DNA of 64,000 bases. Source: Marinobacter bryozoorum (GTDB lineage: Bacteria; Pseudomonadota; Gammaproteobacteria; Pseudomonadales; Oleiphilaceae). The position numbers and the translations under genes are program-made. Under the pieces are notes generated by a model, which worked only from the letters and a program-made list of their open reading frames with translations, searched no databases and was not told where the DNA came from. The stretch covers positions 1 to 64,000 of the forward strand of contig NZ_JAKZAH010000009.1 in the NCBI RefSeq assembly GCF_023156245.1, read 5' to 3'. Numbering within the stretch: the first letter of the stretch is position 1; each line of letters opens with the position of its first letter. Shown one piece after another: positions 46,484 through 55,943 of this stretch.

Positions 46484-46489
46484 TATACT
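46484..46489 (+). promoter_or_regulatory. Putative -10 element of the ATP-grasp operon
   Basis: TATACT lies 45 bases before the ATG at 46529, which would put transcription start near 46496, at the edge of the TGTGA-N6-TCACA palindrome. The -35 is weak (TGAACT at 18 bases). Confidence 0.4.
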
Positions 46490-46498
46490 CTTTAGAAA

Positions 46499-46514
46499 TG
46501 TGAAATATCTCACA
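46499..46514. promoter_or_regulatory. Perfect CRP/Vfr-type palindrome overlapping the start region
   Basis: TGTGA-N6-TCACA, an exact core match to the CRP/Vfr operator, ends 14 bases before the ATG at 46529 and two bases before the ribosome binding site AAGGAG. In this place a bound protein would block initiation instead of recruiting polymerase. The match is seen directly; the regulator is inferred. Confidence 0.6.
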
Positions 46515-46528
46515 CTCAAGGAGTGATC

Positions 46529-47767
46529 ATGGCAAAGCGTGAACGCAAGTTTAATCCCGACAAGGGCTATGTGGCGTTACTGGGGTGGAGCCTCAACGCG
46601 GTGGAAGCGGCTGAATCCTTTGATCGCCAGTATGTGGTGGTCGCGCCGGACTGGGCGGAACCCTACTGCGAAGAACACGATATTCCCTACGTGCCCTGGA
46701 ACTTCGAGCGCCTCAATGACCGCTCGGTAGAGATTGCCCAGACCCTGAAAGACATGGGTGTCAATGTGGCCATCCCCCTGTTCGAGGAAACCGTGGAGTG
46801 GGCCGGCGCCATCAACTCGGTGCTGCTGGATAACCCCCGCCTGTTCGGCCAGGCCATGCTGTTGCGGGACAAGGCGCTGATGAAGCGTCGCGCCCAGCTG
46901 GGCGGTATCCGGGTGGGCATCTTCGAGGAAGCCCACGACCGGGAAGACGTCATCCGCTTTCTCAAGCGCGTGAACCAGACCCTGCTGAAACTGGACGGCG
47001 ACCCCAACGACCCGATCCACTTGAAGGCCTTCGACAAGGCCGGCTGCCTTGGTCACCGTGTTATCCGGACTCCTGACGAGGTGGATACCATCCCCGAGGA
47101 AGAATTCCCGGTGCTGATGGAGTCCCACCTGGACGGCTGGGAGTTTGCGGTAGAAGCGTGGATTCATAACGGCAAGATCCGTTTCCTGAACATCTCCGAG
47201 TACGTCACTCTGGGCTACTCGGTGTTTGTGCCGGCGACCCCGGACCTTGAAAAGTACCGCTCACAGATCACGGCCGAGATCGAAAAACTGATCAAGACCT
47301 TCGATATCGACTTTGGCTTTGTGCACCCCGAGTACTTTGTGACCAGCGACGGCACTATGTATTTCGGCGAGGTAGCCTATCGCCCACCGGGCTTCAAGGT
47401 GTTCGAGCTGCTCGAGCGGGCCTACGGTTTCAACGCCTACCAGGGCCTGATCCTGGCCTTCGATCCGAAAACCACGGATGAAGAGATTACCGCTTTCTTC
47501 CCGAAAGAAGTGGTGGATGCCAAGGGCTACGCAGGGTGCTTTGGCGTCTATCCCCGCCGCCGTGTGGTCAGCCGCCTGGAAATGCCGGAAGAGACCGAAG
47601 ACCACGAATACTTCGAGTCCCACGAGCTGACGCCGCCGATGGAAGAAACCGTCACCAAGCGAACCGCCTTTGGTACCCACTGGGGGCTGATCTACTTCTT
47701 TGGTGATGATCCCTATCGCATGCGGGATCTGCTGAAACATCAGGAAGACCTGGACTTCTATGTATAA
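46529..47767 (+). CDS. ATP-grasp carboxylate-amine ligase of unknown substrate
   Basis: 412 residues from the ATG at 46529 (AAGGAG seven bases upstream). Residues 1-95 look like a pre-ATP-grasp Rossmann domain (GYVALLGWSLNAVEAA). The ATP-grasp core follows: RDKALMKRRAQLG (about 115), lysine in LKAFDKAGCLG, the adenine-side LMESHLDGWEFAVEAWI, and the metal/phosphate segment YFGEVAYRPPG with Glu281 and Arg285. This organisation belongs to ligases that make an acyl phosphate and join it to an amine. The last 100 residues are acidic and unfamiliar. I do not recognise a named family. The gene 45 bases downstream encodes a papain-like protein, and the two probably work as a pair. Confidence 0.85.
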   Translation: MAKRERKFNPDKGYVALLGWSLNAVEAAESFDRQYVVVAPDWAEPYCEEHDIPYVPWNFERLNDRSVEIAQTLKDMGVNVAIPLFEETVEWAGAINSVLLDNPRLFGQAMLLRDKALMKRRAQLGGIRVGIFEEAHDREDVIRFLKRVNQTLLKLDGDPNDPIHLKAFDKAGCLGHRVIRTPDEVDTIPEEEFPVLMESHLDGWEFAVEAWIHNGKIRFLNISEYVTLGYSVFVPATPDLEKYRSQITAEIEKLIKTFDIDFGFVHPEYFVTSDGTMYFGEVAYRPPGFKVFELLERAYGFNAYQGLILAFDPKTTDEEITAFFPKEVVDAKGYAGCFGVYPRRRVVSRLEMPEETEDHEYFESHELTPPMEETVTKRTAFGTHWGLIYFFGDDPYRMRDLLKHQEDLDFYV

Positions 47768-47812
47768 TCAACCTGAACTGGCTACGGGCTGCGCGCCCTG
47801 AGGATTTCGGGT

Positions 47813-49843
47813 TTGACTGACAATAACGAACAGGCCGCTTCCGGTGACGTGGCAAGGAAGCTCGCCGTCAGGGTCAAGCGTCTGGATGACGCTGTTGAGC
47901 TGGTAGCGGCAAGCCCCGAGTTTACCCGGTTGTCGAAGATACCCCGCCTGCTGGACAGTGCCCGGCAGGTGCTGATGGTTGATGGTGGGTGCGCCGAGGC
48001 AGAGGCACGGGCCGAGGCAATCGAGCAGTGCGGCGTTTTTGAGGGTTCCGACTGGGCCTACCCGCAGATCCTGATTCCGTCACTGACCAGCCACTCCCTG
48101 CGCAGCCCGCAGATGGAGACTGTGGTCGTCGAGGCGCTCAGTGAACTGAGATTACTTGCGGTGGCCAAGGGGCTCTACCTGCATCCCCATATCTCGAAGG
48201 AGCAGGCCCACCACTACCTGGCGCAGGTGCTGGCTATCAACCTGGAGCTGCTGTTTGGTGTCCCGTCTGAAGCGGAGCGCGAGCAGCAGGGAAAACTGGC
48301 CACCATCAGCCGCAACGTCATTCGCCACCTGGCCGAACGTATCGGCTATGAGCACGTCATCGATCAGTTAATCGACGAGATCTGGCGGATGCTCAACCAG
48401 CGTCCCATCCAGGTGGGTGATGTCCGGCAGATGATTACCCAGATTGCTGTCTGCCGCGCCAACCCCGAAATTGACCTGGGCGGCAGTGGCCAGGGTGCGG
48501 ACCGGCTGATCAGCAGCCTGTTTGGCCCGACCCAGGCCTGTCGGGAAGACCCCGGTGTGGAGGTTTACCAGGAGCACCTGCGCACCATGGACTCGGTGGC
48601 CCTGCAAAGCGAAGCCACGGGCTGTGCCCGGGCCATGCACGATACTGGCCTGGTTTCGCCCTATCATGCGGTGCTTATACGGTACCTGCTGAACACCAGT
48701 CCCAGCCTGGTGGGCGAGGCCCTTGGCCTGTCCAGTACCGGGCGGGACTGCCTGCTGTGCTACCAGGACCTGGTGCATGCCCTGATCCACGAAGGCATTC
48801 ATCCGGAAACCTGTCAGGGCGTGTACGGCCTGGCGCTGATGCTTGAGCGTGGCATCCTGTACCAGCCCCCCGTCGCACCGGCGCTCTGGCGCCAGGTGCT
48901 GCTGCCGGTATCGCCTTATTCCGAGGAGCGCTTGCGAATGGCCTTTGGCCCGGCACCGGGGCCCCGGGCCTGGCTGATCCAGGGTGTGTTGTCGATGCTG
49001 GGCCAGCCGCTGGGTGTGGGGCAGGGGAATAACCCCACCTGCCAGTCGGCGCGGGCCCTGTCCATGTGGGCCTACAATGACCCGGATTACCTGCTGCAGA
49101 TGGTTGCCTGGGCCGCCAGGGATGACGAAATCATCATGCATTTTGAAGGGCAGCCGGTGTCCTCAAGGCTGAGCGAGTCCGGCGTTGCGACGGAAGTCAC
49201 CCTCGACCTGGACCCGGTGTCCCTGCTGGTGGTGCCCCACCTGGACCGTATCTACGCAGAAATGGGGCGCATGTGCATCGGTCGGGAAGGGGACCCCCAT
49301 CGCTGGGTAAACCCTGAATTCCATGGCTGGTGGTCCGGCCGGGGCTTCCGTATCAATGTCGATGTGGCGACGGGTCAGCTGGATGACCTGGACGGATTTC
49401 TCCGCCACTTCTACGTCAGCTACCACCCCTATTACAACGGCAACCAGCCCTTGATCCACCCCCAGCCGGCAGGCATCGCCGTCACCGACAGTGCAGCCCG
49501 GTTTATCGGCTGGCATGCCATTACCATATTGCGGGTCGGGCTGGATCAGCAGGATGAGATGCGGGTGTACTTCTTCAACCCCAATAACGACAGTGGTCAG
49601 AACTGGGGTGACGAGATCGTGGTGAGTACGTCGGGTAACGGGGAGCGTTTCGGGGAGGCCTCCCTGCCGTTCGGGGAGTTCGCCTCGCGGCTGTACATCT
49701 TCCACTTCGACCCGCTGGAGCGTGGCGACCCGGAGGCTGTCCCTGCGGAGGACATCCAGGGTATCAGCGAGATGGTCTATCGCAGCTGGGGTGCAGACCG
49801 GGTGCCAGGGGCTGCCCTGCAGGCGGACAGCGGGCCGGGCTGA
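47813..49843 (+). CDS. Large protein with C-terminal papain-like thiol hydrolase domain, novel
   Basis: 676 residues, TTG start at 47813 (TGAGGA upstream); no signal peptide. Residues 1-380 are mainly helical and unfamiliar. From about 390 the sequence fits a papain-like core: Gln404 and Cys410 in GQGNNPTCQSARALS (the six-residue Gln-Cys spacing equals papain), His568 in FIGWHAITILRVGL, and Asn589 in YFFNPNNDSGQNWG, where the later NWG resembles the NSWG region. Cys, His, Asn and oxyanion Gln are thus all present in order. It probably cleaves or transfers an amide or peptide. The upstream ATP-grasp ligase suggests a make/break pair comparable in logic to glutathionylspermidine synthetase/amidase. 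Substrate unknown. Confidence 0.75.
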   Translation: MTDNNEQAASGDVARKLAVRVKRLDDAVELVAASPEFTRLSKIPRLLDSARQVLMVDGGCAEAEARAEAIEQCGVFEGSDWAYPQILIPSLTSHSLRSPQMETVVVEALSELRLLAVAKGLYLHPHISKEQAHHYLAQVLAINLELLFGVPSEAEREQQGKLATISRNVIRHLAERIGYEHVIDQLIDEIWRMLNQRPIQVGDVRQMITQIAVCRANPEIDLGGSGQGADRLISSLFGPTQACREDPGVEVYQEHLRTMDSVALQSEATGCARAMHDTGLVSPYHAVLIRYLLNTSPSLVGEALGLSSTGRDCLLCYQDLVHALIHEGIHPETCQGVYGLALMLERGILYQPPVAPALWRQVLLPVSPYSEERLRMAFGPAPGPRAWLIQGVLSMLGQPLGVGQGNNPTCQSARALSMWAYNDPDYLLQMVAWAARDDEIIMHFEGQPVSSRLSESGVATEVTLDLDPVSLLVVPHLDRIYAEMGRMCIGREGDPHRWVNPEFHGWWSGRGFRINVDVATGQLDDLDGFLRHFYVSYHPYYNGNQPLIHPQPAGIAVTDSAARFIGWHAITILRVGLDQQDEMRVYFFNPNNDSGQNWGDEIVVSTSGNGERFGEASLPFGEFASRLYIFHFDPLERGDPEAVPAEDIQGISEMVYRSWGADRVPGAALQADSGPG

Positions 49844-54284: not shown

Positions 54285-55505
54285 CTACAGGGCTGACTCA
54301 CCTCGGTGGGTTCCTGCTGCTGGCGACCTTGTAGCATTGCTCACTTCACAGGCGAACCGGGCGTGCCCCGCCCTTAATACATTGATCGCGCCAACCGTGT
54401 CGGCGTTTTCCTTAAAGCCGCAATCCAAGCAGTGGAACTGCGCTTGTGTCTGGCGGTTGTCCGCCGACACATGGCCGCAGGCCGGGCAGGTGCGGCTGGT
54501 GTTGCGTGGTGGCACGGCCACCAGCCAACCGCCGTTCCATTGGAGCTTGTAGTCCAACTGGCGGCGGAACTCGAACCAGCCCTGATCCAGAATACTTCGG
54601 TTTAATCCAGATTTGGGTCGAACGCTTCTTCCCGGCTGATCAACCGTGCCTGCCGCCGACGTCGACATATTCCGCACCTTTAAATCCTCGATACACACCA
54701 TCGCGTGGTTTTGGCTGATCGTGGTCGTGGCTTTGTGCAGATAGTCGCGGCGGGCATGGCCGATCCGGGCGTGAATGCGCTGGACACGGGCTTTGGCTCT
54801 TTTCCAGTTGTTGCTGAATTTGGTCTTACGGCTCAGTGCCTGCTGCGCTTTGCGCAGCCGGTCCTGATGCGTCTTGAAGCTGTTAAGGGGGTTCAGGTGG
54901 TCATCGCCCTCAAACGCTGGCAGGGGCCGGTCAAATGAGGCGAAACGGGCTACGCCCATATCGATGCCAATGGCATCGCCCTTGGGCACGGGCTGTTCAA
55001 CTTCACGCTCGGTCTGGATCGAGACAAACCACTTGCCACACGACTGGCTGACGGTGATGTTCTTCACCGTACCCAGAACCTCACGGCTGTTGCGGTACCG
55101 CAACCAGCCGAGCTTTGGCAGAAACAAACGGCTGTTGGCCTGTTCCAGTTTTGTGCCTTGTGGGTAGCGAAAGCTGTCAGACATTCCCTTTTTCTTGAAG
55201 CAAGGAAACTCGGCTCGCCGGGCAAAGAAGTTGGCGTAGGCGCGGTCCAGGTCCTTCAGGCTTTGCTGCAAAGCCTGCGAAGGCGTTTCACCTAACCATT
55301 CGGTTTTGCTGTCCAGCTTCCATTGCGTGAGCTGCTTGCACAATCCGGCGTAACCCAGCTTTTTGTCCCCTTGCTCGTAACGCTCTTTCTGCAACGCCAA
55401 CGCCTTGTTAAACACGAACCGACAGGAGCCAGCGAAACGGCGCATAAGGCGCTGTTGCCGGCCGTTGGGTCTGAGTTCGTATTTAAAGGCTTGTAGACGT
55501 TGCAT
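54285..55505 (-). CDS. tnpB: RNA-guided endonuclease TnpB
   Basis: About 406 residues from the ATG at 55505. All RuvC residues appear present: Asp in AIGIDMGVARFASF, Glu in MVCIEDLKVRNMS, and the last Asp in NADTVGAINVLRAG. The zinc ribbon is intact (CPACG and CLDCG). The N-terminus MQRLQAFKYELRPNGRQQRL, then CRFVFNKAL, is typical of the family. TnpB cleaves DNA guided by an RNA from the element's right end and promotes retention of the IS. No frameshift seen, so this copy may be active. Confidence 0.93.
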   Translation of the reverse strand: MQRLQAFKYELRPNGRQQRLMRRFAGSCRFVFNKALALQKERYEQGDKKLGYAGLCKQLTQWKLDSKTEWLGETPSQALQQSLKDLDRAYANFFARRAEFPCFKKKGMSDSFRYPQGTKLEQANSRLFLPKLGWLRYRNSREVLGTVKNITVSQSCGKWFVSIQTEREVEQPVPKGDAIGIDMGVARFASFDRPLPAFEGDDHLNPLNSFKTHQDRLRKAQQALSRKTKFSNNWKRAKARVQRIHARIGHARRDYLHKATTTISQNHAMVCIEDLKVRNMSTSAAGTVDQPGRSVRPKSGLNRSILDQGWFEFRRQLDYKLQWNGGWLVAVPPRNTSRTCPACGHVSADNRQTQAQFHCLDCGFKENADTVGAINVLRAGHARFACEVSNATRSPAAGTHRGESAL

Positions 55506-55526
55506 AACCACACTATAGTTTGGTCT

Positions 55527-55943
55527 ATGAAACAAAGCAACGATATAAGAAAAGGTCGCCACTGCATTTTTGTGATGCACGTTCACTTGGTCTTTGTGGC
55601 CAAATACCGCAAAACCGTCTTCGACAAGGACGCCATAGATCGCTTGCGGGAGCTGTTCACAAACATCTGTGCCGGTTTTGATGCAGAACTAAAGGAAATG
55701 GATGGCGAGGCCGATCATGTTCACCTGCTGGTGAATTATCCGCCCAAGGTGGCGGTATCATCTCTGGTGAACAGCTTAAAGGGCGCTTCCAGTCGCGTAC
55801 TACGAAAGGAGCGACCCGATATCGCGTCGAGGTTCTATTACAAAGGCGTCCTCTGGTCGCCGTCTTACTTTGCATCCAGTTGTGGTGGCGCGCCGATAGA
55901 GATCATTCGCCAGTACATCGAGCAACAGCAAACACCACATTGA
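55527..55943 (+). CDS. tnpA: IS200/IS605 transposase TnpA (HUH Y1 type)
   Basis: 138 residues from the ATG at 55527. The HUH motif is HVH in GEADHVHLLVNYPP, and the catalytic Tyr is likely in IIRQYIEQQQ near the C-terminus. FVMHVHLVFVAKYRKTVF is the usual N-terminal strand. Full length, no stop or frameshift. It cuts and joins single-stranded IS ends at hairpins. Divergent from tnpB, as in the IS605 group. Confidence 0.94.
   Translation: MKQSNDIRKGRHCIFVMHVHLVFVAKYRKTVFDKDAIDRLRELFTNICAGFDAELKEMDGEADHVHLLVNYPPKVAVSSLVNSLKGASSRVLRKERPDIASRFYYKGVLWSPSYFASSCGGAPIEIIRQYIEQQQTPH

Follow-up and report, generated by a model that had tools for sequence, protein, structure and literature searches.

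The stretch of DNA analysed here (the window) is 64,000 nucleotides long and belongs to a contig of Marinobacter bryozoorum. It carries two adjacent genes, for a predicted ATP-grasp amide ligase of 412 residues and a predicted papain-like protein of 676 residues. Our main finding, which goes beyond an earlier note on this DNA, is that the pair is accompanied by a distinct clade of HDAC-fold deacetylases which, unlike other bacterial HDAC-fold deacylases, is confined to pair-positive genomes in the sets tested. The pair together with this deacetylase points to an undescribed cycle in which a group would be attached to an amine and removed again. We assign a probability of about 45% to the reading that the system conjugates an amine reversibly through an amide bond, the same amine being reversibly acetylated as well. 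Relative genomes, loci and contigs are cited by analysis handles (G, L and C numbers, respectively) where they have to be told apart.

Distribution of the gene pair

Both genes lie on the forward strand. The ATP-grasp gene (46529–47767) begins with ATG and is followed by 45 intergenic bases (47768–47812), which contain a ribosome-binding-like GAGGA at 47800–47804 ahead of the TTG start of the papain-like gene (47813–49843). The open reading frames bear out the layout described in the earlier note, which had also named co-occurrence of the two genes in related genomes as a check of its reading. Co-occurrence held in every set tested. The papain-like family was found in 34 of 58 relatives, and the same 34 are strongly ATP-grasp-positive, with a 35th genome (G039) giving a weak ATP-grasp match alone. 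Among 369 evenly drawn gammaproteobacteria (the class set), 13 encode the papain-like family and the same 13 are strongly ATP-grasp-positive; two others returned weak, distant ATP-grasp matches. A set of 398 genomes drawn from the phylum contained the papain-like family in 11, six of them new, and an ATP-grasp gene adjoins it in all six. Finally, a scan of named genomes returned at least 576 relatives of the papain-like family. The 80 best of these loci were fetched, and the named genera come from these 80. In 74 of them the ATP-grasp gene closely precedes the papain-like gene in the same orientation, and the hosts include Marinobacter, Halomonas and allies, Marinimicrobium, Haliea, Saccharospirillum, Guyparkeria, Oceanimonas and Ectothiorhodospiraceae. 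The nearest named locus among the matches listed is that of M. segnicrescens, with a papain-like protein 93% identical to that of the window.

The pair is not an obligatory operon, since for 30 of 142 distinct papain-like rows the stretches examined show no ATP-grasp frame closer than 2.5 kb. The same tally includes three loci labelled convergent, one of which (L238) is an artefact of an overlong frame. Copy numbers vary as well. G006 carries five full-length papain-like copies and a fragment, and extra papain-like copies within the genus are 52–57% identical to the window protein. Full-length ATP-grasp copies number one or two in most genomes and three in G014. Genes of a second ATP-grasp clade (75–78%) were fetched at 11 loci, in 5 of which such a gene and a papain-like paralogue are oriented head to head; at L277, in G010, the papain-like gene that faces the second ATP-grasp gene is split into two frames. 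In G004, G015 and G026, only fragments remain of the ATP-grasp gene next to the main papain-like gene, while the latter is whole and a complete ATP-grasp gene is present elsewhere. Four genomes of the same genus (G005, G012, G013 and G031), which are 99–100% complete, lack the ATP-grasp, papain-like and HDAC-clade genes.

The earlier note had read the two genes as a pair that makes and breaks, or makes and trims, one amide or peptide product. Their co-occurrence, complete in the sets tested, agrees with this. However, the association extends beyond the pair to the HDAC clade and sometimes to an acetyltransferase, and the unpaired extra papain-like copies make a strict one-to-one make/trim pair too simple.

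Among plasmid records, one 1.8-Mb Halomonas replicon carries both genes, and the other 28 encode ATP-grasp proteins alone, at under 60% identity (22–26% for those listed). A phage origin was considered and is unsupported: 70 viral-contig stretches fitted a peptide pattern, none encoded a relative, and no PHROG family matched. A role in anti-phage defence is likewise unsupported, as no PADLOC model matched the ATP-grasp, papain-like or HDAC protein.

A deacetylase clade and acetyltransferases that accompany the pair

In each of four members scanned, the HDAC-fold gene matches PF00850 with an E-value no higher than 4e-90. Genome-wide searches for the clade were made with the G596 protein, at E-values of at most 1e-60 in the relatives and at least 334 bits in the class set. 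The clade is present in 27 of the 34 pair-positive relatives and in none of the 24 pair-negative ones. In the class set it occurs in 12 of 13 pair-positive and 0 of 356 pair-negative genomes, with all other genomes scoring 272 bits or less. It was also found in four of the six phylum extras, one of these being the query’s own genome. Overall, 42 of 52 pair-positive genomes encode the clade, or 37 of 47 when the five discovery genomes (G014, G237, G316, G403 and G596), in which the HDAC was first seen by adjacency, are left out. Pair-positive genomes devoid of the clade include the phylum extras G796 and G436 and the class-set genome G217, and in four complete genomes of the same genus that lack the pair, the only HDACs are distant ones scoring at most 169 bits. 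Fisher’s test for the association of pair and HDAC gave p values of 1e-21 counted over genomes, 5e-16 over genera and 2e-10 within the relatives; these values include the five discovery genomes and overstate independence, the genera not being fully independent.

Several gene orders link the HDAC physically to the pair. The order is ATP-grasp, papain-like, HDAC in G237 and in the metagenome-assembled locus L104, which ends at a contig edge; papain-like, HDAC, ATP-grasp in G316; and papain-like, ATP-grasp, HDAC in G403. Convergent arrangements beside the pair are seen in G596 and G010, and in G014 the HDAC gene lies 3.2 kb off. The clade member of the M. bryozoorum genome is located at positions 47156–48253 of contig C35.

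In a tree of HDACs from the loci examined, labelled by bit score and with six rows under 150 bits omitted, 35 pair-associated HDACs form one clade against 22 generic HDACs (support 100/97). The distance from the first motif to the HPE motif is 24–36 residues in the 33 scorable clade rows (29 or more in all but one), and 5–6 residues in 11 of 12 scored generic rows; the remaining one, at 112, looks like a misplaced match. All 35 clade rows retain RPPGHH, D-W-D-x-H and EGGY, and all 22 generic rows share RPPGHH and EGGY. According to Graf 2024 (PMC11532494), these three motifs mark acetyl removal as opposed to long-chain deacylation. On its PF00850 match and sequence motifs, the pair-associated protein is a predicted HDAC-fold deacetylase with the zinc-site motif and the catalytic Tyr. 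It shares PF00850 and the three motifs with bacterial HDAC-fold deacylases, but differs from them in forming a separate clade, in about 24–30 extra residues before HPE and in an altered gatekeeper loop. We dropped an assignment of HDAC6 as nearest relative, because HDAC6 tops the list through the summing of its two domains.

Two kinds of GNAT-family acetyltransferase adjoin the HDAC gene. The first, GNATa, was found in 9 of the 58 relatives. All nine are HDAC-positive, and in each of them the GNATa gene immediately precedes the HDAC gene, in the same orientation; the search for GNATa found none in the window’s own genome. The second, GNATb, lies directly downstream of the HDAC gene in G227 and G335, which belong to one genus, and GNATb of G335 matches spermine/spermidine acetyltransferase structures (E = 8e-12). 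As GNATa was found only with the HDAC, and the HDAC clade only with the pair, in the sets tested, the three are nested, GNAT within HDAC and HDAC within pair. The simplest reading of this nesting is that the substrate of HDAC and GNAT exists solely where the pair does. In three relatives, unpaired papain-like genes are found near potFGHI, and this proximity together with GNATb suggests a polyamine as the amine.

Predicted proteins, related systems and surroundings

The residues singled out in the earlier note, Glu281 and Arg285 of the ATP-grasp protein and Gln404, Cys410, His568 and Asn589 of the papain-like protein, are found at these positions and are invariant in 124 of 124 and 142 of 142 distinct family sequences, respectively, which argues that they are not there by chance. 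In the ATP-grasp family, Lys115, Lys166, Glu198, Glu205, Glu209, Glu268 and Ala283 are invariant as well. The motif reads E-V-A-Y-R, with Ala283 in the place where Asn is usual in E-x-N-x-R; we take this Ala variant to be one that also occurs in PurK-like ATP-grasp enzymes. Pfam returned ATP-grasp_4 over residues 195–283 (E = 6.4e-5), under the curated cut-off. The closest solved structures are L-amino acid ligases, with E-values of 0.005 (3vot) and 0.06 in a search with the protein and 0.004 and 0.008 with a profile, and the phmmer alignment to 3vot covers the ATP-grasp core. On the strength of these residues and matches, the 412-residue protein is assigned to the ATP-grasp superfamily, with the predicted nucleotide, metal and phosphate residues in place. 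An AlphaFold model of this protein was poor (predicted local distance difference test score, pLDDT, of 49.9) and was not used.

The papain-like protein has its catalytic-type Cys, His and Asn and an oxyanion-type Gln in papain order, and the Q-x5-C spacing of Gln404 and Cys410 is that of papain. It found no family match in Pfam or NCBIfam (E up to 1), PHROG or PADLOC, and two sequence searches of the PDB gave nothing significant (best E = 0.28 and 0.12). The calpain C2 and papain C1 profiles of Pfam matched neither the window protein (E up to 1) nor 39 family members (E up to 10). Stray weak Pfam matches were seen in some of the 39 aligned relatives, the best at E = 0.002, none to a peptidase. 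The statement of the earlier note that neither protein can be placed in a named family therefore stands, no match passing a family cut-off in these four libraries.

An AlphaFold model of the 676-residue protein, built with 39 sequences of its own family, has a pLDDT of 82.6, the loop 403–408 scoring below 50. The model suggests a helical half (about residues 1–370) and a papain/calpain-type domain (about 372–634). The earlier note had named papain-, CHAP- or transglutaminase-like hits for residues 390–640 as support for its reading. VIA-align superimposed residues 372–634 onto the cores of calpain-1 and calpain-3 with a Z-score of 8.1, which is middling by the program’s own note, and root-mean-square deviations of 4.3–4.5 over 201–209 aligned residues. 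All of the top 18 rows are calpains. Z falls to 6.3 at the next unrelated row, and further down the list come staphopains and another bacterial cysteine peptidase. In contrast, a Foldseek search against the PDB and viral structures gave nothing significant (best E = 0.25), although papain-type peptidases recur in its list, and the peptidase profiles of Pfam were silent. Residues 57–237 loosely resemble helical repeat proteins (TOG, HEAT, armadillo). A papain-type fold is thus supported, but not proven, by structure comparison of the model and the invariant residues. With calpain and papain peptidases (clan CA) the protein would share this domain and the Q-x5-C...H...N order, and it differs from them in its unrelated helical N-terminal half and in the missing Pfam peptidase match.

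Glutathionylspermidine synthetase/amidase (GspSA) and trypanothione synthetase combine ATP-grasp-type amide synthesis with a papain-like thiol amidase that acts on a polyamine amide. The common logic is an ATP-dependent amide maker together with a papain-like thiol enzyme. GspSA is, however, a single fused protein with a CHAP amidase, whereas here there are two separate genes, the papain-like protein combining a helical half with a predicted calpain/papain-type domain; moreover, L-amino acid ligases are the nearest relatives of the ATP-grasp protein, and an HDAC clade is associated. GspSA-family profiles in Pfam and NCBIfam (E up to 1) matched neither the ATP-grasp nor the papain-like protein. 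Glutathionylspermidine amidase is mentioned in PMC10318531.

A second comparison is offered by RimK (RLAN-RimK) and GNAT-DUF3335, where an ATP-grasp ligase gene likewise stands beside a papain-like (peptidase C39-like) gene. This arrangement also exists in the M. bryozoorum genome, on contig C61 (L227). The Pfam families differ, the window pair having no DUF3335 or RimK-type match, and hhalign comparisons with single RimK and DUF3335 proteins revealed no relation (probabilities of 0.2% for the papain-like and 0.5% for the ATP-grasp protein). The likeness to L-amino acid ligases of the BL00235 type (E = 0.004–0.06) extends over the core alone, and we know of no papain-like partner for these ligases. 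Our literature search retrieved no description of the pair, or of the pair with the HDAC, but did not cover the 2009 survey of amidoligases by Iyer and colleagues, where a mention is possible.

In the window, the pair is flanked on its 5′ side by a malate:quinone oxidoreductase gene and on its 3′ side by a convergent zinc alcohol dehydrogenase gene. The wider neighbourhood was rejected as a functional guide, as mqo lies beside the pair in Marinobacter and other genes, which we take to be MscK-like and TlyA-like, in Halomonas relatives. A perfect palindrome, TGTGA-N6-TCACA, is found at 46499–46514, 14 bases 5′ of the ATP-grasp start; it was dropped as a candidate regulator site, being one base off in M. 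segnicrescens, and the pattern is absent from the other upstream regions scanned. Repeat and Rfam RNA searches at the locus found none. Elsewhere in the window (54285–55943), an IS200/IS605-type element encodes a TnpB-like protein (OrfB_IS605, Cas12f1-like domain) on the reverse strand, with an overlapping IS200-like Y1 transposase gene on the forward strand. In other genomes, two unpaired papain-like genes (L065 and L067) lie upstream of a GCS2-like ligase gene and of a second gene that matched no family and is presumably AstE-like. A TENA/THI-4 family gene adjoins an unpaired papain-like gene in one genome (L077:7034-7702), and an 89% identical relative of it adjoins the HDAC gene in another (L265:9021-9686).

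A possible amine-conjugation cycle and its alternatives

In the mechanism that we propose, the window would encode the central part of an amide-conjugation system of three to four genes. Using ATP, the first of these enzymes, the ATP-grasp ligase, would activate a carboxylate, probably one belonging to an amino acid or a short peptide, and couple it to an amine, most likely of polyamine or lysine type. The papain-like enzyme would attack the resulting amide through Cys410 and either hydrolyse or transfer it, and the dedicated HDAC-fold deacetylase would strip acetyl groups off the same amine. A GNAT enzyme would acetylate this amine in some genomes, the present one not being among them as far as the searched GNAT shows. 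We infer the catalysis, the substrate and the direction of the reactions; should the amine not be a polyamine, the leading candidate is lysine or the lysine of a protein. More tentative than the reversible conjugation itself, and with the odds leaning against it, is a full cycle of ATP-grasp ligase, calpain-like deconjugase with a helical scaffold, dedicated HDAC and sometimes GNAT, in which an acyl or peptidyl group would be put on an amine and taken off it and acetylation of this amine would gate the reaction.

A number of observations weigh against reversible conjugation of an acetylated amine, and of a polyamine in particular. The HDAC gene is unlinked to the pair in most genomes, including this one, and 10 of the 52 pair-positive genomes have no member of the clade. 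Its gatekeeper loop after SAGFD is changed, and conforms neither to the polyamine type given in PMC11532494 nor to the generic D-P-L/M type. The G596 protein has its better scores among protein deacetylases and HDAC-like amidohydrolases, with 233 bits for HDAC15, 214 for HDAH and about 204 for a single HDAC6 domain, and scores lower with the polyamine enzymes HDAC10 (162 bits) and acetylpolyamine aminohydrolase (117 bits). GNATa has N-terminal acetyltransferases as its best structure matches, and rimI, far under the cut-off, is the best NCBIfam match of both GNATa and GNATb. The GNATb link may represent a single event, as may the three potFGHI cases, in two of which (L062 and L070) an opposite-strand gene intervenes. 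Unpaired papain-like copies adjoin many unrelated genes, and the helical half of the papain-like protein suggests a large partner.

Some of these points would be accommodated by reversible protein tagging, in which the ATP-grasp enzyme would attach an amino acid to a lysine or a terminus of a protein, the several papain-like paralogues would act as deconjugases of different targets and the HDAC would deacetylate the same lysines. The helical repeat-like half, the excess of papain-like over ATP-grasp copies in several genomes and the top scores of the HDAC, which are to class II protein deacetylases, are all consistent with such a role. However, no further gene that could be the target is kept beside the pair across genera, and the ATP-grasp protein resembles small-molecule L-amino acid ligases. 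We consider tagging rather unlikely.

The same ligase likeness would suit the synthesis of a solute or signal resembling a dipeptide, such as a compatible solute, possibly in acetylated form, that the papain-like protein and the HDAC would recycle. The genera represented among the 80 best of at least 576 loci, which we take to be marine, halophilic or soda-lake organisms, fit this picture, but the habitat bias may stem from naming just these 80. Furthermore, G005, G012, G013 and G031 belong to the same genus and lack all three genes, and a protein of 676 residues with a helical half appears large for dipeptide recycling. A solute or signal of this kind ranks slightly below protein tagging in our estimate. 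Least probable is that the pair is a real unit while HDAC and GNAT share its lifestyle or descent and not its pathway: the HDAC is unlinked in most genomes and kinship among genomes means that the counts are not independent, yet the clade is missing from all 356 and all 24 pair-negative genomes and is physically linked in several gene orders in different families.

These associations provide functional context for papain-like and ATP-grasp families that are nameless in the libraries searched, and for a clade of bacterial HDACs. For reversible conjugation of an acetylated amine, the nesting of GNAT within HDAC and of HDAC within the pair predicts that the substrate of the HDAC would be derived from the product of the ligase or would feed into it.

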